Shown here: positions 2,464 to 44,789 of the stretch, in pieces | Position numbering within the stretch: the stretch's first letter is position 1 | Layout: each line of letters opens with the position of its first letter | From: a virus | IMG/VR virus record: IMGVR_UViG_3300021339_000008 | Span: 1 to 53,951 of that record | Reading direction: 5' to 3' (one strand) | DNA: 53,951 nt | Position numbers and translations under genes: made by a program | The notes under the pieces: model-generated | Told to the model about the DNA's origin: nothing | The model's database searches: none | Seen by the model: the letters and a program-made list of their open reading frames with translations, nothing else

Positions 2464-3501
2464 ATGGGCGTCAAATACACCTCGCGGGAGGCGGTGAAGG
2501 CCGCCACCGACCAGGCCGAGACCGCGCGTTCGAACGCGAGGGTCGACGCCGCCATCGAGTCCGCGTCACGGACGATCGAGCGCAAGATGCACCGCCGGTT
2601 CTATCCGTGGACCGGCACCCGCACCCTCGACTGGCCGCCGGACCAGCGGTCCCGGTCGCACGTGCTGTGGCTCGGCGAGGACGAACTGCTGTCCGTGAGC
2701 GCGCTGACCGCCGGTGGTGTCACGATCCCGCCCGGCGACTTCTTCCCGCGGCCGGACAACGCCACCCCGTACGACCGGCTGGAGATCAACCTCGCGGGCG
2801 GGTCCGCGTTCGGGGCGGGTGACACCTCGCAGCGGGCGGTGTCCATCGCGGGCGTCTTCGGCTACTGCGACGACACTGTGGCCGCCGGCGCCCTGGCCGA
2901 GGGACTGGACGTGTCGGAGACCGCGGTCGACGTGACCGACAGCGCGGCCGTCGGCGTCGGTGACCTGCTGCTGGTGGGCACCGAGCGGATGATCGTCACC
3001 GGCAAGACCATGCTGTCGACCGGGCAGACGCTGCAGGCGCCGCTCACCGCCGACGTCCGCGCCCAGACGGTGGCCGTCACCACCGGCTCGGCCTACGCCG
3101 CCGGGGAGACGCTCCTCGTCGACGCCGAGCGGATGCTCGTGGTGGACATCGCGGGCAATAACCTGATCGTGCAGCGCGCGCACGACGGCAGCACGCTGGC
3201 CGTGCACACCGGGTCCACGATCTACGCCCCTCGCACCCTGACCGTCGAACGCCACGCCGTCGGCACCACCGCGGTCGAACACAACACCGCGGCCGCGGTG
3301 CGCCGGCACACCCCGCCGGGCCCGATCGCGACGCTCGCCCTGGCGATCGCCGTCAGCGACCTGCAGCAGCAGGCCGCCGGGTACGCCCGCACCAGCGGCT
3401 CCGGCGACAACCAGCGCGAGACCGCCGGCAAGGGCGTGGCCGACGCCTGGCGCAACGCTGACCCCTACCGCCGCAAGGCACGCGGGCCGTGGGCCGTATG
3501 A
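2464..3501 (+). CDS. Head-tail connector (gp6-like adaptor), enlarged
   Basis: A 345-aa protein. The N-terminus (TSREAVKAATD, then SASRTIERKMHRRFYPW) and C-terminus (IATLALAIAVSDLQQQAAGYARTS) resemble the helical head-tail adaptors of actinobacterial siphophages. Between them lies an insert of roughly 120 residues with two similar beta segments (VGDLLLVGTERMIV and AGETLLVDAERMLVV). That insert makes it longer than the usual 100-200 aa adaptors. AAAGG precedes the ATG. It is followed by an ATGA overlap with the next neck gene. The role as ring between portal and tail is inferred from order. Confidence 0.7.
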   Translation: MGVKYTSREAVKAATDQAETARSNARVDAAIESASRTIERKMHRRFYPWTGTRTLDWPPDQRSRSHVLWLGEDELLSVSALTAGGVTIPPGDFFPRPDNATPYDRLEINLAGGSAFGAGDTSQRAVSIAGVFGYCDDTVAAGALAEGLDVSETAVDVTDSAAVGVGDLLLVGTERMIVTGKTMLSTGQTLQAPLTADVRAQTVAVTTGSAYAAGETLLVDAERMLVVDIAGNNLIVQRAHDGSTLAVHTGSTIYAPRTLTVERHAVGTTAVEHNTAAAVRRHTPPGPIATLALAIAVSDLQQQAAGYARTSGSGDNQRETAGKGVADAWRNADPYRRKARGPWAV

Positions 3502-14781: not shown

Positions 14782-15494
14782 CCACAGGACGGCACCAGGC
14801 ACCGACCCGGCGTGACCTATGGGTCTTCGCGTTGGTTGTGGCGCTCGCGATCGTCGGCGGGTCGGTGTTGATCGACAAGGACTCGGAGGCGGACCGCGCC
14901 GACACCGCCGACAGCCGCGCCGACGTGGCCGTGGAGCAGCGTGACACCGCGGTGGCGCAGGCCAAGGGCCTCGGCCAGCAGATCACCGACGCGTGCACCG
15001 CCGACGGCGGCCTGGCCGCCCAGATCGCGGACCTGTGCGCCCGCGCGCAGCGGGTGGTGGACCAGCCGGAGCCGGACCGCATCGACACCGACGCGCTCGC
15101 CAGCCTCGTCACCGCGCGGGTGCTGGCCACGATTCCCCGGCCGCGGGACGGCCGCGACGGGGCGACACCGCCGTGCGCACTGCTGCCGCCGTTCTGCGCG
15201 GGCACCGACGGCACCGACGGCGAGGACGGCAGCGACGGACGCAACGGCCAGGACGGCGCCGACGGCCGCGGTATCGCCGCGACCGAGGTCCGCGACGGTC
15301 GCCTGTTCATCACCTACACCGACGGCGAACAGGTCGACGCCGGCCCGGTGCCACCGGGCGCGGACGGCCGCGGGATCACTCGCGCGGAGGTCGTCGACTG
15401 CCGACTGATCGTGACCTACACCGACGGGGCCACGCAGGACGCCGGCCAGGTGTGCGACCCCAACCCTGCCCCGCTGCCCCTGTTAGGAGGCTGA
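14778..15494 (+). CDS. Membrane-anchored collagen-like protein
   Basis: A 238-aa protein. An N-terminal membrane anchor (LWVFALVVALAIVGGSVLI, about 13-33) is followed by helix, then a collagen-like stretch of Gly-x-Asp triplets near residues 146-165 (GTDGTDGEDGSDGRNGQDG) and a C-terminal region with two related units, RDGRLFITYTDGEQ and VDCRLIVTYTDGAT. Four or more Cys follow the anchor. Collagen-like repeats in phages occur in fibres; here the anchor points to an envelope protein made with the lysis genes (inference). Confidence 0.65.
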   Translation: MTTGRHQAPTRRDLWVFALVVALAIVGGSVLIDKDSEADRADTADSRADVAVEQRDTAVAQAKGLGQQITDACTADGGLAAQIADLCARAQRVVDQPEPDRIDTDALASLVTARVLATIPRPRDGRDGATPPCALLPPFCAGTDGTDGEDGSDGRNGQDGADGRGIAATEVRDGRLFITYTDGEQVDAGPVPPGADGRGITRAEVVDCRLIVTYTDGATQDAGQVCDPNPAPLPLLGG

Positions 15495-34545: not shown

Positions 34546-34778
34546 TGCGCACGCAGTTCCTCCGCCCACGCCGCGGCTCCTGGCGGGATCGTCGCCTGCT
34601 CGTCTACATCGAGCTGCGTGACCTGTGGATCGGCGCGTTCGTCGCACGGGATGCCGTCTACGTCGTCCCTCTGCCGGGCCTGGTGTTCAGGTGGGATCGG
34701 GCCCTGCCTGGTTCCCTCTGGGCGGCTGAGCCCACCGACCACCCGTCCTCCCCACCCGTGGGAGGTGGGGACAGGTGA
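34542..34778 (+). CDS. Small basic protein, unknown function
   Basis: A 78-aa protein, ATGA overlap. The Arg-rich N-terminus (RPRRGSWRDRRLLVYI) is followed by short beta strands (LWIGAFVARDAVYVVPLPGL). Its GTGA overlap with the C5 methyltransferase start suggests coupled translation. Confidence 0.6.
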   Translation: MMRTQFLRPRRGSWRDRRLLVYIELRDLWIGAFVARDAVYVVPLPGLVFRWDRALPGSLWAAEPTDHPSSPPVGGGDR

Positions 34779-36508
34779 CCGCGATCGACTTCGAACTCGA
34801 CTACACGGACATCTTCTGCGGCGCCGGCGGCAGCTCCATCGGCCTCACCGAGGCCGGGTTCACCCTGAAACTCGCCGCCAACCACTGGGCCCGCGCCATC
34901 GAGACCCACGCCGCCAACTTCCGCGACGCCGACCACCTCTGCGCCGACGTCAACAACTACGACATGCGCCGCCTGCCGCGCACCGCGGTGCTGTGGGCGT
35001 CGCCGATCTGCACCGAGAACAGCCCGGCCGGCGGCCGCCGACGACGCAGCGCGCAACCGGACCTGTTCGACCACGGCCCGGTCGACGACGCCGCGTTCGA
35101 GCGGACCCGCGCCACCTTCTGGGACGTCATCCGCGCCACCGAGGTCCACCGCTACCAGGCGGTGATCGTCGAGAACGTCGTCGAGGCCGCGAGCTGGGAG
35201 CTGTTCGACGTTTGGCTCACCGCGATGCGCACCCTCGGCTACAACGCCCAGACGGTGTGTGTGTCCACCGCGCACGTCGGCGACGACGCCAACCCGCACG
35301 CGCCGCAGTGGCGCGACCGGCTCTACATCGTCCTCACCCGGATCGGCATCCCGCTGCCCGACGTCGCACCCCGTCCACCCGCGTGGTGCCAGGAGTGCGA
35401 CGAAGACGTCGCCGCGGTGCAGAGCTGGAAGGACCCACGGAAGCGGAAGATCGGCAAGTACCGCCAGCAGTACCTGTACCGGTGCCCGAACACGGGCTGC
35501 CACCAGGCGGTCGTCGAGCCGTACGTGCTCCCGGCCGCCGCGGCGATCGACTGGACCGACCTCGGCCAGCGCATCGGCGACCGGGCGAAGCCGCTCGCCG
35601 ACAAGACCCTCGCGCGGATCCGCGCCGGCCTGGCGCAGTTCGCCGAGCCGATCACCCTGGAAGCCACGGGCAACACGTTCGAACGCCGACCCGGGGTGCG
35701 GACCTGGCCCGCCGCCGGGGCGCCGCTGACCACCGTCACCGGCTCGGCCACCAAGGCCGTCGCGTGTCCACCGCTGTTGGTCCCGACCGGCGGCACGTGG
35801 AACGAGACCGTCACCTCGACCGGCGAGCCGATGCGCACCCGCCTGGCGAACGAGAAGGGCTTCGAGGGGATCGTCAGCGCGCGTCCGCTGATGCTGTCGG
35901 TGAACCACGACGACGAGCACGGACGCGTCTTCCCGGCTGCCGCCGCGCCGCTGCCGCCGCGCACGACCAAGATCGGCGATGCCTTGGTGCTGCCGTTCAT
36001 CACCGAACTGCGCGGCGGCAGCTCCGACGTCCGGCCGATCCACGACCCGCTGGCCACCCTGGCGGCATCGGGCAACCACCACGGGCTGACGGTCCCGCCG
36101 GGCGCGTTCTTCACCAAGCACTACACCCCGCGCGGCCGCGACGGCCAGATGTGCAAGAACGTCCGCACCGACCCGCTCGGTGCCATCCTCGCCGCCGGCG
36201 GCCGCCACTCCCTGGTCGTGCCCTACTACCGCACCGGGCGGGCCAAGACCACCGCCAGCCCGCTGGACACCGTCACCAGCCGGGAGCGGTTCGCCCTGGT
36301 CGAGGCCATCGGCTCGGCCGAGGTCGACGACTGCCTGTTCCGCATGTTGCAGCCGCGCGAGCACCTCCGCGCCCAACGGTTCCCCGACAGCTACATCGTC
36401 ACCGGGAACAAGGGCGAGCAGACCATGCAGGCCGGAAACGCCGTCTCGGCCAACGTCGCCCACTGGCTCGGCCGCGCCATCGCCGCAGTCCTCGGAGGTA
36501 CCGCATGA
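34775..36508 (+). CDS. C5 cytosine DNA methyltransferase
   Basis: A 577-aa enzyme that would methylate C5 of cytosine using SAM. Motif I is DIFCGAGGSSIGL (11-23); motif IV has the catalytic Cys79 in SPICTENS instead of PPCQ; motif VI is ENV (133-135); motif VIII QWRDR (178-182); motif X GNAVSANVAHWLG at the end. A zinc-ribbon-like CQEC ... CPNTGC insert lies near 205-242, before a long target-recognition region. No partner restriction enzyme is encoded nearby, so it is probably protective against host restriction. It overlaps the next gene by ATGA. Confidence 0.85.
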   Translation: MTAIDFELDYTDIFCGAGGSSIGLTEAGFTLKLAANHWARAIETHAANFRDADHLCADVNNYDMRRLPRTAVLWASPICTENSPAGGRRRRSAQPDLFDHGPVDDAAFERTRATFWDVIRATEVHRYQAVIVENVVEAASWELFDVWLTAMRTLGYNAQTVCVSTAHVGDDANPHAPQWRDRLYIVLTRIGIPLPDVAPRPPAWCQECDEDVAAVQSWKDPRKRKIGKYRQQYLYRCPNTGCHQAVVEPYVLPAAAAIDWTDLGQRIGDRAKPLADKTLARIRAGLAQFAEPITLEATGNTFERRPGVRTWPAAGAPLTTVTGSATKAVACPPLLVPTGGTWNETVTSTGEPMRTRLANEKGFEGIVSARPLMLSVNHDDEHGRVFPAAAAPLPPRTTKIGDALVLPFITELRGGSSDVRPIHDPLATLAASGNHHGLTVPPGAFFTKHYTPRGRDGQMCKNVRTDPLGAILAAGGRHSLVVPYYRTGRAKTTASPLDTVTSRERFALVEAIGSAEVDDCLFRMLQPREHLRAQRFPDSYIVTGNKGEQTMQAGNAVSANVAHWLGRAIAAVLGGTA

Positions 36509-39039
36509 CCACCGCCGAACGCATCACCCCCGACGGCCGGGCCTACATCGAGTTCCTGGCGGCGAAGACGCAGCTGGCGCCGGTGACCGGGTTCCAGGTG
36601 GATCCGGACGAGGTGCACCCGAGCCTGAAGGCACACCAGCGCGACGCCGTGCTGTGGGCGGTCCGCGGCGGCCGGCGCGCCGTGTTCGCCAGCTTCGGCC
36701 TGGGCAAGACCCGAATCCAGCTGGAGATCGAACGGCTGGTGCTGGCCAAGCTCGGCGGCGGCCGCGGTCTGATCACCCTCCCGCTCGGCGTCCGGCAGGA
36801 GTTCATCCGCGACGCCGCCGACCTGGATACCTCGGTGCGGTTCATCCGCACCGAGGACGAGGCACGGACCGACGGCCTGTACCTCACCAACTACGAGACG
36901 GTCCGCGACGGCAAGCTCGACCCGCGCCGGTTCGACGTCGTCTCGCTGGACGAGGCCGCCATCCTGCGCGGCTTCGGAGGGTCGAAGACGTTCCGCGAGT
37001 TCATGCGCCTCTACGAGGGCAGCGCCGGCTACCGGTTCGTGGCCACGGCCACCCCCTCGCCCAACGAGTACATCGAGCTGCTCGCCTACGCCGCGTTCCT
37101 GGACGTGATGGACGTCGGCCAGGCCAAGACACGCTTCTTCAAGCGCGACAGCACCAAGGCCGACAAGCTGACCCTGCTGCCGCACATGGAAGAGCAGTTC
37201 TGGCTGTGGGTGGCGTCGTGGGCGCTGTTCCTGCAGAAGCCTTCCGACCTCGGTCACTCCGACGACGGCTACGAGCTGCCGCCGATGGAGGTGCGCTGGC
37301 ATGAGGTGGCCGGCGGCCCGGTCGACCCCGACCGCGACGGCCAGGGTGCGCTCCTGCACACCGCCCGGCTCGGGGTGCAGGAGGCGGCGAAGGCCAAGCG
37401 GGACAGCCTCACCGCCCGGGTCACCGCCACGGCCGAGCTCGTCGACGCCGACCCGGGTGAGCACTTCCTGATCTGGCACGACCTCGAGGACGAACGCCGC
37501 GCCATCACCGCGGCGATCCCGGACGCGGTATCGGTGTGGGGTTCACAGGACCTCGACGAACGCGAGCAGCGGATCATCGACTTCTCCGACGGCCGGTTCC
37601 GCATCCTCTCGACCAAGCCGGTCATCGCCGGGTCGGGGTGCAACTTCCAGCGGCACTGCCACCGGGCGATCTTCACCGGCATCGGCTTCAAGTTCGCCGA
37701 CTTCATCCAGGCGGTCCACCGGATCTACCGCTTCCTGCAGACCGAGCAGGTGCGCATCGACATCATCTACTCGGAGGCCGAGCGGTCGGTCCGGGCCGAG
37801 CTGGAACGCAAGTGGGCCCAGCACGTCGCCGCGTCCGCGCGCATGGCCGAGATCATCCGCACCTACGGCCTGTCCCACGAGGCGATGGCCAGCACCCTGC
37901 GCCGCTCGATCGGCGTGGAACGGGTCGAGGTAGCCGGCGACGACTACCGCCTGGTCAACAACGACACCGTCCTGGAAACGTCGTCGATGGCCCCCGACAG
38001 CGTCGACCTGATCGTCACGTCAATCCCGTTCAGCACCCAGTACGAGTACACGCCCAGCTACAACGACTTCGGCCACACCGACGACAACGGCCACTTCTGG
38101 GCGCAGATGGACTTCCTCACCCCGCAGTTGCTGCGAGTCCTGGCGCCCGGCCGCAACGCCGTCATCCACGTCAAGGACCGCATCGTCCCCGGCGGCATGA
38201 CCGGCCTCGGCTTCCAGACCGTGCAGCCGTTCCACGCCGAAGCGATCGCCCACTACACCCGGCACGGGTTCGCGTTCCTCGGGATGAAGACGATCGTCAC
38301 CGACGTCGTCCGGGAGAACAACCAGACCTACCGGCTGGGCTGGACCGAGCAGTGCAAGGACGGCTCCCGCATGGGCGCTGGCATGCCCGAGTACCTGCTG
38401 ATCTTCCGCAAGCCGCCGTCCGACCACTCCGATGGCTACGCCGACATCCCGGTGGTGAAGTCGAAGGAGCGCTACTCGCGGACCCGCTGGCAGATCGACG
38501 CGCACGGGTTCGCCCGCTCCAACGGCAACCGGCCGCTGCTGCCGCACGAGCTCGCCGAGCTGCCCCATGACCAGATCTTCAAGCGGTTCCGGGAACGGTC
38601 CCTGACCGCCGTGTACGACTTCGACGAGCACGTCCGCATCGGCGAGGACCTGGAGACAGCCCGCCGGCTCCCGACCACGTTCATGCTGCTGCAGCCCGCG
38701 TCGTGGCACCCGGACGTGTGGACCGACGTCGCCCGCATGCGCACCCTCAACATGCTGCAGGAGCGGAAGGGCCAGCAGCAGCACCTGTGCCCGCTGCAGT
38801 TCGACATCGTCGACCGCCTGATCGAGCAGCTGTCCATGCCCGGCGACACCGTGTTCGACCCGTTCGCCGGCCTGATGACCGTGCCGTACTGCGCGCTCAA
38901 GCTCGGCCGCCGCGGCGTCGGGGTCGAGCTGAACCCCGAGTACTTCCGCGACGGCATCGCCTACGTCCAGGCCGTCGCTGACGAACAGGCAGTGCCCACC
39001 CTGTTCGACCTCGTTGACGCAGAACAGGCCGTCTCATGA
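36505..39039 (+). CDS. SF2 helicase - DNA amino-methyltransferase fusion
   Basis: An 844-aa protein. Residues 1-440 form an SF2/SNF2-like helicase: Walker A SFGLGKT (63-69), DEAA box (149-152), TATPSPN (181-187) and motif VI QAVHRIYR (402-409). Residues about 470-844 form a permuted adenine-N6/cytosine-N4 methyltransferase, with catalytic TSIPF (505-509) first and the SAM-binding FDPFAG (784-789) last, followed by GVGVELNPEY. The TSPPY-type motif has Ile in place of a Pro. It could translocate along DNA and modify it, alone or with the C5 enzyme. Confidence 0.85.
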   Translation: MTTAERITPDGRAYIEFLAAKTQLAPVTGFQVDPDEVHPSLKAHQRDAVLWAVRGGRRAVFASFGLGKTRIQLEIERLVLAKLGGGRGLITLPLGVRQEFIRDAADLDTSVRFIRTEDEARTDGLYLTNYETVRDGKLDPRRFDVVSLDEAAILRGFGGSKTFREFMRLYEGSAGYRFVATATPSPNEYIELLAYAAFLDVMDVGQAKTRFFKRDSTKADKLTLLPHMEEQFWLWVASWALFLQKPSDLGHSDDGYELPPMEVRWHEVAGGPVDPDRDGQGALLHTARLGVQEAAKAKRDSLTARVTATAELVDADPGEHFLIWHDLEDERRAITAAIPDAVSVWGSQDLDEREQRIIDFSDGRFRILSTKPVIAGSGCNFQRHCHRAIFTGIGFKFADFIQAVHRIYRFLQTEQVRIDIIYSEAERSVRAELERKWAQHVAASARMAEIIRTYGLSHEAMASTLRRSIGVERVEVAGDDYRLVNNDTVLETSSMAPDSVDLIVTSIPFSTQYEYTPSYNDFGHTDDNGHFWAQMDFLTPQLLRVLAPGRNAVIHVKDRIVPGGMTGLGFQTVQPFHAEAIAHYTRHGFAFLGMKTIVTDVVRENNQTYRLGWTEQCKDGSRMGAGMPEYLLIFRKPPSDHSDGYADIPVVKSKERYSRTRWQIDAHGFARSNGNRPLLPHELAELPHDQIFKRFRERSLTAVYDFDEHVRIGEDLETARRLPTTFMLLQPASWHPDVWTDVARMRTLNMLQERKGQQQHLCPLQFDIVDRLIEQLSMPGDTVFDPFAGLMTVPYCALKLGRRGVGVELNPEYFRDGIAYVQAVADEQAVPTLFDLVDAEQAVS

Positions 39040-39266: not shown

Positions 39267-39500
39267 TCAGGCGGCCCAGGCCGGTACGGCGATGCCGAGC
39301 GCGGCGCAGTAGTGCACCAGCGCGCCGCCGGCGTGGAGCGCGGTCAACTCGGCCAACGCCTCCCGCGCCGTGGCGGCGAACTCGCCCACCGTCAGGGCGT
39401 CCAGTGCGGTGCGATCGGCGCGCATCAGGTCCTCGATCACGGCGATGGTCGACGGGTCGGTCTCGCCGGTCGCCTGGCTGATCAGCATCGCGTAGGGCAT
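39267..39500 (-). CDS. Partner protein of the RHH operon
   Basis: A 77-aa protein, start at ATG 39500 with AAGGAG upstream. It is helical (STIAVIEDLMRADRTALDAL, VGEFAATAREALAELTALH), ending in AALGIAVPAWAA. It is the first gene of a two-gene minus-strand operon embedded in a plus-strand region. The layout recalls toxin-antitoxin or autoregulated pairs, but this protein has no known toxin motif. Confidence 0.6.
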   Translation of the reverse strand: MPYAMLISQATGETDPSTIAVIEDLMRADRTALDALTVGEFAATAREALAELTALHAGGALVHYCAALGIAVPAWAA

Positions 39501-39516: not shown

Positions 39517-39557
39517 GGTATAGCTACACCTTAGCCCGGTGTAGCTACACCCGTCAA
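39517..39557 (-). promoter_or_regulatory. Promoter with tandem palindromic operators
   Basis: On the minus strand, -35 TTGACG (39557-39552) and -10 TAAGGT (39533-39528) are 18 bases apart. The spacer holds a perfect 14-base palindrome, GGTGTAGCTACACC (39538-39551). A 13/14 copy, GGTATAGCTACACC (39517-39530), overlaps the -10, with centres 21 bases apart, so both lie on the same DNA face. This is a clear operator pair for the 39500-39113 operon. Confidence 0.75.
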
Positions 39558-40643: not shown

Positions 40644-41159
40644 GTGACCACGCTCAAGATCGACGGCAAACCCACCGCCACCGCCCGCGACGGCATCGAC
40701 GCCTACATCCCCGGCCTCTACGCCACCCCCGGGAAACGCCTCGTCGGGGTCATTGAGCTAGAGCATGTCGAGCGCGTCGAGCCCGCCCCCGGGGCCGACC
40801 GCGAGGCGTCCGTCCGCGTGCGCATCTCCGCCCTGGAGATCGCCAACCCCGACCAGGAGGACCAGCTCCGCCGCGCGCAGCAGGCGCTCTATCTGCACCG
40901 CACCGCCATGGGCACCCTCGGCGAGGACGGCGACTGGCAACTCGCCAAGGACACGCTCGACCGGTGCGCCGGCATGCTCCACGCCCTCGAAGCCGCCCGC
41001 CTCCGCGCCGCCACCAACCACGCCCGCAACCACGCGAGGCGCGTCCTCGCCGTCCCCGAGATCACGGTCGCCGAGATGCGCCACGAACTCGACCAGCTCG
41101 CCGACATGCTCGACGCCACCCTCCGCGCCGTCGAGTTCGACGACCAGGGCGAGGACTGA
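40644..41159 (+). CDS. Helical protein before the replication genes
   Basis: A 171-aa protein, start at GTG 40644 with AAGGAG upstream. It begins with a beta region (TLKIDGKPTATARDGIDAYI) and RLVGVIELEHVERVEPAPGA, then two long helices (DTLDRCAGMLHALEAARLRA and MRHELDQLADMLDATLRAVE). Function unknown. Confidence 0.65.
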   Translation: MTTLKIDGKPTATARDGIDAYIPGLYATPGKRLVGVIELEHVERVEPAPGADREASVRVRISALEIANPDQEDQLRRAQQALYLHRTAMGTLGEDGDWQLAKDTLDRCAGMLHALEAARLRAATNHARNHARRVLAVPEITVAEMRHELDQLADMLDATLRAVEFDDQGED

Positions 41160-41165
41160 CCCCCT

Positions 41166-41405
41166 ATGAACCGCACCACCGACGACCCGACCGGCCGGCC
41201 ACCCACGCCGACCGGCGGGGTCGTCGTGCCCATCGAGACGGCCGCCGAGCTCCGCGGCCGGATACGGCTCGCGCTCGCGCTGTTCGACCACCGCGGCCAC
41301 ACCGCCGACACCGCCCGCCTCGCCGACCGGGCACTCCGCGGGGACTCCATCGCACACCTGGCCGCCGGCGACACCGCCGGACGGCGCACCACGAAGGGGG
41401 CATGA
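41166..41405 (+). CDS. Small protein upstream of the initiator
   Basis: A 79-aa protein, six bases after the previous stop. A Pro/Thr-rich start is followed by helices (ELRGRIRLALALFDHRGHTA). Its stop overlaps the initiator ATG (ATGA), so the two are coupled. Confidence 0.55.
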   Translation: MNRTTDDPTGRPPTPTGGVVVPIETAAELRGRIRLALALFDHRGHTADTARLADRALRGDSIAHLAAGDTAGRRTTKGA

Positions 41406-42481
41406 GGATGGCGCGCGCCACCGACACCGGCACCGGCACCGGCGAACCCGGCTGGATCAAGGTCCACGAACGGATGCCCGAACACCCGAAGATCGAGGGC
41501 CTCTCCGACCGGGCCTTCCGGGTGCTCGTCGAGACCTGGTGCTGGTCCCGCCGCAACCACACCGACGGTCACGTCAAGGCCGCCGTGTGGGCCAAGCGCG
41601 GCACCCCCGCGGCGCGCCGTGAACTGGTCGCGGCCGGCCTCGCCGACCCCACCGCCGACGGCATCGTCATGCACGACTGGCTCGACTGGCAGAAGTCCGC
41701 CGAGGCCCTCGCCGCACTGTCCGCCACCCGCGCCGCAGCCGGCGCCAAGGGCGCCGCAGCCACCGCCCAGCGGCGAGCAAGTGCCGGGGCAAATGCCAGG
41801 GCAAGTGGTGAAGCAAATGCCGAGGCAAACGCTCGGCAAGTGCCCAGGCAAAACTCCGGCAAAACGGCAGCAGAGTCAGAGGAAAGAACTCCTATGGTCT
41901 CGTCTGGGGTAAAACCCCAGACCGCGCGTACACACGTCCAGGCGAGCGCACGCGATAGCGCCCCAACCCCCAGCCCGTCAACCCCTGGCCGCCAGCGCGC
42001 CGCCGACCTCAACGCCACCGCCCGGCGCCCCGACACCCAGCGCATCCTCAGCCAGTTCGAAACCGCCCGCGGAACCCCGCTGCTCAGCGACGTGCGACGC
42101 ACCTACGTCCGGATCGTCGACCAACTCCTCGACGAGGGCGTCCCCGAACACGAGATCGTCGGCGCCCTGCCCGACCTCGCCACCCGCGGCGCCGGCCCCG
42201 CCGTCCTGCCGCACCTCATCGAGGAACGCCGCGCCAAGCAGGCCAGCCGGCCGGTCCACGAACGCCGCCCCGACGAGGTCACCGACGCCGACCTCACCCC
42301 GGCCGTCCTCGACGACATCCTCGGCCCCGACTCCTGGATGGGCGACCCGCCACCCGACGCGATCGAACTCGGACCCGCCGAACCGCGCCGCGCCTGGTAC
42401 GCCGCCCGCCGCGACGAACGCCTCACCGAACGCCGCGCCGAGGCCCGCGCGCTGCTCGCCCGCCGCCAGGTCCCGGCATGA
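41402..42481 (+). CDS. Replication initiator/helicase loader-like protein with internal origin
   Basis: A 359-aa protein. The N-terminal 110 residues (GWIKVHERMPEHPKIEGLSD, RAFRVLVETWCWSRRNHTDG, MHDWLDWQKS) match phage replisome organisers with a winged-helix domain. The middle is an Ala/Asn/Arg-rich linker coded by the iteron array at 41777-41870. The C-terminal part (LSQFETARGTPLLSDVRRTY, DQLLDEGVPEHEIVGAL) may load DnaB, the next gene (ATGA overlap). The arrangement of initiator, internal origin and helicase mirrors lambda O/P. Confidence 0.75.
   Translation: MRMARATDTGTGTGEPGWIKVHERMPEHPKIEGLSDRAFRVLVETWCWSRRNHTDGHVKAAVWAKRGTPAARRELVAAGLADPTADGIVMHDWLDWQKSAEALAALSATRAAAGAKGAAATAQRRASAGANARASGEANAEANARQVPRQNSGKTAAESEERTPMVSSGVKPQTARTHVQASARDSAPTPSPSTPGRQRAADLNATARRPDTQRILSQFETARGTPLLSDVRRTYVRIVDQLLDEGVPEHEIVGALPDLATRGAGPAVLPHLIEERRAKQASRPVHERRPDEVTDADLTPAVLDDILGPDSWMGDPPPDAIELGPAEPRRAWYAARRDERLTERRAEARALLARRQVPA
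41777..41870. repeat. Iteron array, probable replication origin
   Basis: Eight units starting with GCAA occur at 41777, 41789, 41801, 41813, 41825, 41836, 41848 and 41859, spaced 12, 12, 12, 12, 11, 12 and 11 bases. Consensus is about GCAARTGCCRGG. The 11-base steps break the codon phase, so selection acts on DNA rather than protein. An AT-richer stretch and a hairpin follow directly. Confidence 0.75.
41902..41922. repeat. Perfect hairpin next to the iterons
   Basis: GTCTGGGGT and ACCCCAGAC form a perfect 9-pair stem with an AAA loop, 32 bases after the last iteron. With the AGAGGAAAGAACTCCT stretch between, it may be the unwinding or primase-loading part of the origin. Confidence 0.55.
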
Positions 42482-43803
42482 CCGCCGTGGCCGACCCCAC
42501 CGTCGACGAACTCGACGCCGCCCGCGACGGTGTCGGTGTCGACGCCGAACGCGCCTGCCTCGGCGGCGCCCTCTGGTCGTCGACCGCCATCACCGAGATC
42601 GTCGAGATCGTCGACCCCGGCGACTGGTCCCAGCCCAAACACGCCGCCATCGCCGCCGCCATCGCCGCGCTCGCCGACACCGGGCAGGTCATCGAACCCA
42701 CCTCGGTGCTGGCCGAGCTCGAACGCCGCGGTGAGATGCTCCGCGTCGGCGGCGCCCCCTACCTGCACACCCTCCTGGCGGCCGGCAGTCCCGCGTACCT
42801 GCACTACGCCCGGCTCGTCGCCAACCGGGCGCACCTGCGGCGCATCGGCCAGACCGGCCAACGGCTGCAGCAGCTCGCGCTGGTCGGCGACGTCGACGCC
42901 CCCGACGAGGTCCTCGACCGGGCCCGCGCCGACCTCGATGCCGTCGCCGAACGCCGCCGCGGCCGCGAGCTGTATGCGTTCGCCGACCTGCTCAACGCGG
43001 CCGTCGACGGCTACGGCGACCCGATCCCGCCGGGGCTGGCCACCCCGTGGCCGGACCTCGACGAGATCCTCGGCGGCGGCGGGTTGCGCGCCGGCGCCCT
43101 CACCATCGTCGGGGCGAGGCCGGGCGTCGGGAAGTCCGTGATCGCGGTGAACCTCGCCCGGTACGCCGCAGCCGGTGGCGCCGGCGTGCTGGTCGCGTCG
43201 CTGGAGATGCCGCAGGCCGAACTCATGGACCGGCTCGTCGCCGCCGAAGGCCCCGTCGACTACGGCCGGCTCCGCGACCACAAGCTGACCGAGGCCGACT
43301 GGCAGGCCGTCGACCGCGCCGCCGACGCCCTGCGCCACCACCCCATCCGGATCGACGACAACCCGAACGCCACCCTCGCCAGCATCCGCGCCGCCGGCCG
43401 CGACATGACCCGCACCCCGACCGGTCTCGGCCTGCTGGTCATCGACTACCTGCAGCTGATCAAACCGGCCGACTCGCGGCAGCCCCGGCAGGAACAGGTC
43501 GCGGCCGTGGCCCGCGGCTGCAAGCTGCTGGCCCGCGAGCTGGCGGTCCCGGTCGTGGCGCTGTCCGGCATCAACCGCGGCCCCACCGCCCGCGCCTCCG
43601 CCCGACCAACCATGGCCGACCTCCGCGAAAGCGGCGAGATCGAGAACTCCGCCGACCAGATCATCCTGCTGCACCGCGACGACGAGAAGCACGGCGAGAT
43701 CGAACTCGCCGTCGTGAAGAACCGCGCCGGCCGGACCGGGTCGGTGTCCCTGTCCTGGGCCGGGCACTACCAGCGTGCCGCGTCCCTGTCCCGCTACGCC
43801 TGA
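42478..43803 (+). CDS. dnaB: Replicative DNA helicase, DnaB family
   Basis: A 441-aa helicase. The N-terminal domain (to about 150) has AERACLGGALWSSTAITEIV and PYLHTLLAAG, typical of DnaB. The RecA core has Walker A GARPGVGKS (about 212-220), LVASLEMPQAELMDRL, Walker B LLVIDYLQLI and LSGINRGPTARA ... MADLRESGEIENSADQIILL. It unwinds DNA at the phage fork, loaded by the upstream protein. Start is in an ATGA overlap. Confidence 0.9.
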   Translation: MTAVADPTVDELDAARDGVGVDAERACLGGALWSSTAITEIVEIVDPGDWSQPKHAAIAAAIAALADTGQVIEPTSVLAELERRGEMLRVGGAPYLHTLLAAGSPAYLHYARLVANRAHLRRIGQTGQRLQQLALVGDVDAPDEVLDRARADLDAVAERRRGRELYAFADLLNAAVDGYGDPIPPGLATPWPDLDEILGGGGLRAGALTIVGARPGVGKSVIAVNLARYAAAGGAGVLVASLEMPQAELMDRLVAAEGPVDYGRLRDHKLTEADWQAVDRAADALRHHPIRIDDNPNATLASIRAAGRDMTRTPTGLGLLVIDYLQLIKPADSRQPRQEQVAAVARGCKLLARELAVPVVALSGINRGPTARASARPTMADLRESGEIENSADQIILLHRDDEKHGEIELAVVKNRAGRTGSVSLSWAGHYQRAASLSRYA

Positions 43804-44053: not shown

Positions 44054-44319
44054 CCGCCGTCGAACCGGCTGCGGTCGGTGACGCCCTGCACCTGAAGACC
44101 GATGGCACCGGCACCATGCACGTCCGTGGCATCGACATCAGCGACGCTGTCACCGGCGTCCGGATCGAGCACCGCGCCGGCATCCCGGTGGTCGTGCGGG
44201 TCGACCTGCGGGGTGTCGAGGTCCGCTCCGGCTTCGGCCAGGTCGAGCTGCCGCCGGCCGCCGTCGAGGCCCTGATCGCGCTCGGCTGGACCCCGCCCGG
44301 CGACGAGGCCGGCCGATGA
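44050..44319 (+). CDS. Small beta protein, unknown function
   Basis: An 89-aa protein with several short strands (VVVRVDLRGVEVRSGFGQVE) and a final helix. No Cys or catalytic motif. ATGA overlaps on both sides with small replication-region genes. Confidence 0.6.
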   Translation: MTAVEPAAVGDALHLKTDGTGTMHVRGIDISDAVTGVRIEHRAGIPVVVRVDLRGVEVRSGFGQVELPPAAVEALIALGWTPPGDEAGR

Positions 44320-44789
44320 CCGCCGCCCTGTTCGACACCCCAGCCGCGCCAGCACCGCAACCCGAACCCCGCATCGAACACGTCCTCACCACGTTCGTCG
44401 CCGGGAAGCCCGCCCCCCAGGGCTCCAAGCGCTACCTCGGCGCCGGCCGGCCGATGATCGAGTCGTCCAAGGCTGTCGCCCCGTGGCGCGCCGACATCCG
44501 CACCCACCTGCTCATCGCCCACGACGGGCCGCCCCTCGCCGGCGCCGTGCACCTGGTGCTGGAGTTCGTGCTCCCGCGCCCGGCCAGCACGCCGAAGCGA
44601 CGCACGCCCGCCGCGGTGAAGCGCCCGGACCTCGACAAGCTGATCCGCGCGGTGCTCGACGCCGTCACGTCGGCCGGGGTGTGGCGCGACGACTCGCAGG
44701 TCGTGCAGCTCGACGTGCGGAAGCGGCTCGCCGAGGCGGACGAGACCACCGGCTGCCGCATCGTGATCGCCCAGGAGATCCCGTCGTGA
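44316..44789 (+). CDS. rusA: RusA-type Holliday junction resolvase
   Basis: A 157-aa endonuclease that cuts four-way junctions made during replication and recombination. Family features are AGKPAPQGSKRYL near 30-41, PDLDKLIRAVLDAVTSAGVW with Asp105 and Asp107, and WRDDSQVVQLDVRKRL with Asp125/126, corresponding to the three Asp of E. coli RusA. It would clear branched DNA before packaging. Start ATG 44316 overlaps the prior stop. Confidence 0.85.
   Translation: MTAALFDTPAAPAPQPEPRIEHVLTTFVAGKPAPQGSKRYLGAGRPMIESSKAVAPWRADIRTHLLIAHDGPPLAGAVHLVLEFVLPRPASTPKRRTPAAVKRPDLDKLIRAVLDAVTSAGVWRDDSQVVQLDVRKRLAEADETTGCRIVIAQEIPS

Follow-up and report, generated by a model that had tools for sequence, protein, structure and literature searches.

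A candidate iteron-type replication origin in the linker-coding part of an actinophage initiator gene

Does the gene for a phage replication initiator also carry the origin at which its product would act? The question is raised by an IMG/VR virus record of 53951 bases (IMGVR_UViG_3300021339_000008; hereafter the window, meaning the whole stretch that was analysed), in which eight short direct repeats, an unstable stretch and a hairpin lie at positions 41777–41922, in the linker-coding part of an initiator gene. Judging from the sequence, we consider it highly probable that this segment is the replication origin of the phage. A preliminary description of the DNA had proposed an origin inside the replication initiator gene, and the proposal gains support, as a reading of sequence, from the matches of the protein to initiation families and from the behaviour of the array as a DNA signal. 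Multiple direct repeats and an unstable stretch are both found within the initiator gene, which is the layout of iteron-type origins, and many related phages share this layout, with repeat sequences that are very different.

An out-of-phase repeat array in the initiator gene

The tetranucleotide GCAA begins at 41777, 41789, 41801, 41813, 41825, 41836, 41848 and 41859, giving eight units that span 41777–41870 (Table 1). Successive steps are 12, 12, 12, 12, 11, 12 and 11 bases and the codon phases are 0, 0, 0, 0, 0, 2, 2 and 1, such that all three phases are used. Tandem Repeats Finder reported 41777–41852 as a repeat of period 12 with 6.4 copies. The score of an array was the length of the longest chain that a single 4-mer forms at steps of 10–13; the window reached 8 here, and the next best region in the scan of all 53951 bases reached 5. 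None of 3000 synonymous resamplings of the whole initiator gene and none of 3000 permutations of the gene's own codons reached 8 (the maximum was 7, twice and 32 times, respectively), and 5000 dinucleotide shuffles of 260 bases gave chains of at most 6. The eight units at 12/11-base spacing that had been noted earlier are thus confirmed by their coordinates, by Tandem Repeats Finder and by three null models.

The array codes for residues 124–155, where, in the prediction, a long helix ends and a disordered linker begins. The repeat might therefore be nothing other than a low-complexity protein linker rich in alanine, asparagine and glutamine, with the DNA periodicity as a by-product of repeated codons; its place in the protein and the chains of 7 among the codon permutations speak for this reading. 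Against it, the 11-base steps shift the frame and keep the DNA unit, no permutation of the codons attains the observed chain, and the relatives described below add two further objections.

A block difference from the closest relative

The closest relative, L002 (IMGVR_UViG_3300018429_000010), has an initiator protein 80–83% identical to that of the window. Compared in 60-base bins in window coordinates, the two DNAs are 98–100% identical in 41181–41420 (87–100% further upstream) and 92–100% identical from 41901 to 43100, and between these flanks the identities per bin (41421–41900) are 0.72, 0.87, 0.92, 0.82, 0.53, 0.71, 0.60 and 0.57. The N-terminal domain and the array therefore vary together as a block, and the C-terminal half, the hairpin and the near neighbours hardly vary. 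L002 has an array of its own: GCAA begins at its positions 3358, 3367, 3379, 3391, 3403, 3414, 3427, 3435, 3447 and 3458, with steps of 9, 12, 12, 12, 11, 13, 8, 12 and 11 and again in all three codon phases, and the unit sequences differ from those of the window. On these alignments, we read the block difference as the swap of a functional cassette; the alternative is rapid local divergence, which would still have left the periodicity intact. The identical hairpin of L002 provides no independent support, because it falls in the nearly identical part.

The same comparison bears on the idea that the array is bound by protein for another purpose, as a partition site or a packaging start would be, and lies in the initiator gene by chance. 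Direct repeats do mark the partition sites of extrachromosomal mycobacterial prophages, as passages of one study describe (PMC7157519). We nevertheless regard this idea as very improbable: the array is tied to the initiator protein, because array and N-domain differ together from L002, and no partition or packaging gene is present among the 5 neighbouring proteins scanned, which cover the neighbourhood in part only.

Repeat arrays across the wider family

An alignment of five N-domains (A1) retrieved 88 viral loci, and the best 80 were used; the initiator protein matched 168 phage records, and 7 of these were taken together with both plasmid records. Clustering of the 89 sequences (80% nucleotide identity over at least 250 bases) gave 59, namely the window and 58 relatives, with the representative of the window's cluster standing also for L002. 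Excluded before counting were L001 (the window itself), L008 (the same plasmid as L017), L012, L013 and L093 (same contig as L002). A second alignment (A2) held 53 of 60 sequences (the 59 representatives and L002), without L007, L038, L041, L043, L047, L052 and L057. For each locus, 320 linker bases were compared with 2806 control windows from the same loci. Because the loci share descent and the tests treat them as independent, we prefer the counts and the comparison with L002 over p-values.

Chains of 4-mers exceeded the control 95th percentile in 32 of the 59 linkers (18 above the 99th) and chains of 5-mers in 41 (19 above the 99th); the corresponding numbers were 36 and 30 for tracts of 5/6-base repeats, and 12 and 3 for hairpins. 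With tracts masked, equal 5-mers in the 59 sequences lie at a distance of 11 bases 10.1 times as often as in the controls and at 12 bases 4.0 times as often, with more peaks at 22–24 and 34–36 and others at 7, 14, 21 and 28. Among the 32 chains, steps of 11 (59 times) and 12 (49) predominate over 10 (13) and 13 (4), and 30 of the chains contain a step out of codon phase. The repeat unit itself varies among relatives and includes GCAA, TCGCA/GATCGC, GTGAC/GTCAC, TAAGC, GAACA and others.

Counting a 4-mer chain above 3 or a 5-mer chain above 2 as iteron-like, we found such a chain in 43 of the 59 sequences and a tract in 36, with both in 28, either in 51 and neither in 8; for the 58 relatives without the window, the counts are 42, 36, 28, 50 and 8. 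Relatives that lack a conserved period, which the preliminary description had named as grounds for abandoning the origin, accordingly exist as a minority (8 of 58 without either element), and 50 of 58 are otherwise. In all 17 loci in which both could be ordered, the chain lies 5′ of the tract. When the first 700 bases of each sequence were scanned for their least stable 40-mer, its start fell in the linker in 43 of 59, compared with 36% expected by length.

In bacterial genomes, the whole protein as query gave no relative and the N-domain alignment gave 17 loci. Twelve of these are actinobacterial by title (Pseudonocardia, Blastococcus, Labedaea, Arthrobacter, Brevibacterium and others); the remaining titles name Tepidiforma, a proteobacterium, Xanthobacteraceae, Fictibacillus and Acidobacteria. 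The control 95th percentile was exceeded by the 4-mer chain in 9 of 17 bacterial loci, by the tract in 11 and by the hairpin in 6. This set is only partly independent, because the first set contains sequences identical or almost identical to L095, L096, L103, L104 and L109. The best match of the window's N-domain (63%), in a Pseudonocardia metagenome-assembled genome, hints at the host order. With the window's C-terminal half, no relative was found among the 58 in the DNA available for them.

Arrays behind stop codons

In 12 of the 58 relatives, the open frame that begins with the N-domain stops within 145 codons. By-eye reading of the sequences shows repeats that follow or span the stop codon in at least 7 of these 12 (L003, L009, L014, L019, L057, L075 and L078); in L009, L014, L057 and L078 a repeat unit includes the stop codon (TAG or TAA). 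L041, which also has an early stop, shows no clear array. The DNA array persists in early-stop relatives though it is untranslated from the initiator frame. These arrays, together with a family-wide 5-mer spacing peak at 11, which is no multiple of 3, complete the case against a protein linker alone; given also the phase breaks and the codon permutations, we reject that reading and assign it almost no probability. The repeat behaves as a DNA signal because it runs out of phase, because L002 carries an array under a different protein sequence and because arrays continue past early stops, and the earlier claim that the 11-base steps leave codon phase holds.

As separate observations, the initiator frame ends at the array in L003, L009, L014, L057 and L078, and L003 and L009 have a separate frame behind it, as though the initiator were split at the origin.

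Unstable stretch, hairpin and short-repeat tracts

The least stable 40-mer of the gene, at 41875–41914, lies directly 3′ of the array and takes in the 5′ arm of the hairpin; only one separate site in the whole window is less stable. This bears out the AT-richer patch that had been described after the array, as a stem search does for the perfect hairpin of nine pairs. The DNA fold of 41860–41960 has a z score of −3.0. In the relatives, 9 of 36 loci have a stem of at least 7 pairs no more than 70 bases 3′ of the tract, compared with 2.7% of 2164 control segments. We regard the hairpin as a moderate feature, notable through its place and through a moderate enrichment at the same place in relatives.

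Thirty-two tracts in the family score at least 10; by eye, 19 are CAGAGN-, AGAGA- or ACAGA-like and 10 are C runs, and those of L043, L047 and L068 (3 of 32) are neither CAGAGN-like nor C runs. Of the 59 linkers, 13 contain at least four C runs, which amount to a G-quadruplex motif on the non-coding strand, compared with 3 of 757 control windows; none of the 59 has the motif in the opposite orientation. The C-run linkers are those of L004, L005, L006, L010, L011, L026, L037, L038, L040, L042, L044, L048 and L053. In the proteins, tracts are read out as ETETET, SQSQSQ and PTRPDPTRPD, among others. Tentatively, and with slightly more doubt than confidence, we suggest that these low-complexity linkers are readouts of DNA tracts and not protein features, and that a 5/6-base tract 3′ of the iterons, mostly of the CAGAGN-like or the C-run/G-quadruplex class, could be a third origin element for strand opening or helicase entry.

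The pairing of array and tract also bears on an operator. At such a site, the initiator would control transcription of its own gene and of the helicase gene, the hairpin would act as an attenuator and the origin would lie elsewhere. Some plasmid initiators combine iteron binding with autoregulation, and the hairpin is inside the operon. We consider an operator unlikely, since the array is mid-gene and not at the gene start, adjoins a stretch of low stability, is accompanied in relatives by a short-repeat tract in a fixed order, and has precedents inside initiator genes that are origins in the published passages (PMC7466680, PMC6316719, PMC8965321, PMC5703833).

The initiator protein and its neighbourhood

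The initiator protein matches the profiles of PHROG 3926 (E 5.7e-20) and PHROG 2447 (E 1.9e-16), both annotated as 'replication initiation protein'; phrog_2447 is matched by 53 of 53 aligned family members and phrog_3926 by 52 of 53. A Pfam scan of the window protein gave no domain above the cut-off; its matches at E up to 1 included neither RepA_N (PF06970) nor the phage O domain nor any other named initiator domain, and RepA_N was likewise absent from the matches of the 53 members at E up to 0.01. Across the family, Pfam gave weak single matches only, the best spread being DnaT in 2 of 53 members (E 0.002), NCBIfam gave two weak matches with one member each, and a search of solved structures by sequence returned nothing below E 0.1.

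AlphaFold2, run on 46 sequences, gave a mean predicted local distance difference test score (pLDDT) of 76.9 and a predicted template modelling score of 0.41. Its N-domain has the order helix–strand–helix–helix–strand–strand, with pLDDT of 92–98 in 10-residue blocks from residue 21 on; beyond the winged helix, which is predicted with confidence at about residues 20–95, follow a long helix (98–141), a disordered stretch (about 146–189) and C-terminal helices. The fold of the N-domain weakly matches 4pt7_B (Z 6.3 over 83 residues) and 4pta (Z 6.2 over 82), which we take to be staphylococcal initiator N-domains; these scores tie with the winged helices of ORC, LexA and RuvB, and DnaD N-domains reach Z 4.8. 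Foldseek found no match at E ≤ 0.001 (best E 0.91).

Downstream of the DnaB-type helicase gene, in the same region of the window, a RusA resolvase is encoded at 44316–44789; by similarity to the window protein, RusA was found near the initiator gene in 8 of 58 relatives, within the DNA available for them. Upstream, 40749–40929 is 70.7% identical over about 180 bases to Streptomyces phage mu1/6, and no other stretch around the initiator showed DNA similarity to a known phage; mu1/6 (L012) matched only there and was set aside. A 10-pair hairpin with a 7-base loop at 39521–39547 (TAGCTACACC) sits just upstream of the start of a minus-strand frame (39267–39500), near an unstable site at 39495. A very long open frame at 34618–39039, the true start of which is uncertain, resembles in its second part a helicase joined to a DNA methyltransferase (translation read by eye). 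Tandem repeats of 27 and 102 bases occupy 15201–15452, and a tail-fibre-like gene there is a guess.

Table 1 Coordinates of features in the window
Feature	Position	Strand	Basis or remark
Initiator gene, 357 amino acids (P0001)	41408..42481	+	PHROG matches; putative start codon
N-terminal winged-helix domain (residues about 15-95), putative DNA-binding part	41450..41692	+	AlphaFold2
Segment differing from L002 as one cassette (N-domain and array)	41421..41900	+	identity 0.53-0.92
Iteron 1, GCAAGTGCCGGG	41777..41788	+	
Iteron 2, GCAAATGCCAGG	41789..41800	+	
Iteron 3, GCAAGTGGTGAA	41801..41812	+	
Iteron 4, GCAAATGCCGAG	41813..41824	+	
Iteron 5, GCAAACGCTCG	41825..41835	+	11-base step
Iteron 6, GCAAGTGCCCAG	41836..41847	+	
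Iteron 7, GCAAAACTCCG	41848..41858	+	11-base step
Iteron 8, GCAAAACGGCAG	41859..41870	+	mainly GCAAA in common with other units
Weak CAGAGT/CAGAGG tract, putative unwinding element	41871..41901	+	low stability at 41875-41914; short 6-base tract
Perfect hairpin, 9-pair stem, 3-base loop	41902..41922	.	stem search, DNA fold
C-terminal helical region (residues 193-280), putative replisome contact	41984..42247	+	block pLDDT 74-93 from residue 201
DnaB-type replicative helicase	42478..43803	+	DnaB_C E 1e-70, DnaB E 2.4e-16; overlaps initiator gene end

A model of origin function and the points that weigh on it

In the model that we propose, the winged-helix N-domain would bind the eight 11/12-base iterons side by side, and the bound assembly would strain and open the unstable stretch just 3′ of them (41871–41901). 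The C-terminal helical part, past the disordered linker, would recruit DnaB from the next, overlapping gene. The hairpin would mark the 3′ boundary, where it may act in priming or as a hindrance to re-annealing.

Several observations count against an origin at this site. The margin of the single-window test is small, because permutation of the gene's own codons gives a chain of 7 in 32 of 3000 cases, and the relatives therefore weigh more as evidence. Among these, 8 of 58 have neither chain nor tract at the thresholds set (for example, L007, Mycobacterium phage Elite2014), in at least 4 of the 32 chain-positive loci the chain is the tract itself (L037, L053, L070 and L074), and only 3 of 17 bacterial loci have a 5-mer chain above the control 95th percentile. 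The window's own tract is weak, with a score of 6 under a control 95th percentile of 8. The hairpin taken alone is weak evidence, because simulated sequence yields as many 9-pair stems in 54 kb (3–10, compared with 8 rows in the window for stems of 9 pairs or longer, of which two describe one site), and we rejected it as strong stand-alone evidence. DnaB was found near the initiator gene in only 4 of 58 relatives, judged by similarity to the window DnaB within the DNA available for them, and its place next door is rejected as a family-wide rule. Cumulative guanine–cytosine (GC) skew makes no turn at the array in the window, and GC skew was dropped as an origin mark; the strongest skew of the window (−0.15 and −0.17) is at 40–44 kb.

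An origin at 41777–41922 would provide a candidate for a large and little-studied group, made up mainly of actinobacterial phages and prophages, and would suggest a rule for finding others, which is to read the linker DNA behind the initiator's winged helix. Relatives with different iteron classes, and one pair that differs by a block of N-domain plus array, are suited to compatibility tests. If the reading is true, odd repetitive protein linkers would be explained as DNA signals.

Comparison with known systems

Origins within initiator genes are a known kind, because the lambda and Stx phages, SPP1 oriL, TP901-1/Tuc2009 and pSK41 provide precedents. What seems to be new is an actinophage family with changing iteron classes, a recurrent tract that includes a C-run class, and an array that may be coding or non-coding; we found no description of such a family in the open-access literature searched, with most subscription papers outside the search. 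The comparisons that follow draw on passages of the papers cited.

In pSK41, a staphylococcal RepA_N plasmid, the winged-helix N-domain binds boxes located centrally in the rep gene, and the protein segment encoded by the origin serves as a dispensable linker (PMC5703833). Between pPR9 and pSK41, some 500 bases that comprise N-domain and origin differ as a block and the flanks are kept, a difference that resembles that between the window and L002 (PMC5703833). The window shares the RepA_N layout, in layout only, with its array between a predicted winged helix and C-terminal helices. pSK41 is, however, a firmicute plasmid with four Rep boxes, whereas the window has eight units and no RepA_N among its Pfam matches, and the pSK41 C-domain contacts the DnaG primase, whereas the next gene in the window encodes DnaB (PMC5703833).

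The authors of a study of extrachromosomal mycobacterial prophages consider the origin to lie upstream of or within repA, like in lambda, and report no repeats in the regions that the study describes; these RepA prophages, likened to the window by description, are actinobacterial phages, as is the window (PMC7157519). The replisome organizers of TP901-1 and Tuc2009 bind regions rich in direct repeats within their own gene, which are the origin (PMC8965321). These phages resemble the window in having repeats in the initiator gene, but they infect firmicutes, the likeness is by description, and the passage mentions repeats and not an unstable stretch (PMC8965321). SPP1 gene 38/oriL matches the anatomy of the window, with an initiator that binds repeats in its own gene beside an unstable stretch; it is likened by description. 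Unlike the window, SPP1 encodes its helicase loader separately, as gp39, and has a second origin (PMC6316719). In the O genes of lambda and Stx phages, iterons and an AT-rich tract lie in the middle of the initiator gene, as in the window; each lambdoid iteron is an inverted repeat, and there are four (six in Stx phages), whereas the window has eight direct units of 11/12 bases (PMC7466680). The likeness to a lambda-type origin in the initiator gene that was drawn in the preliminary description is therefore apt for the layout, and TP901-1/Tuc2009, SPP1 and pSK41 are at least as close.
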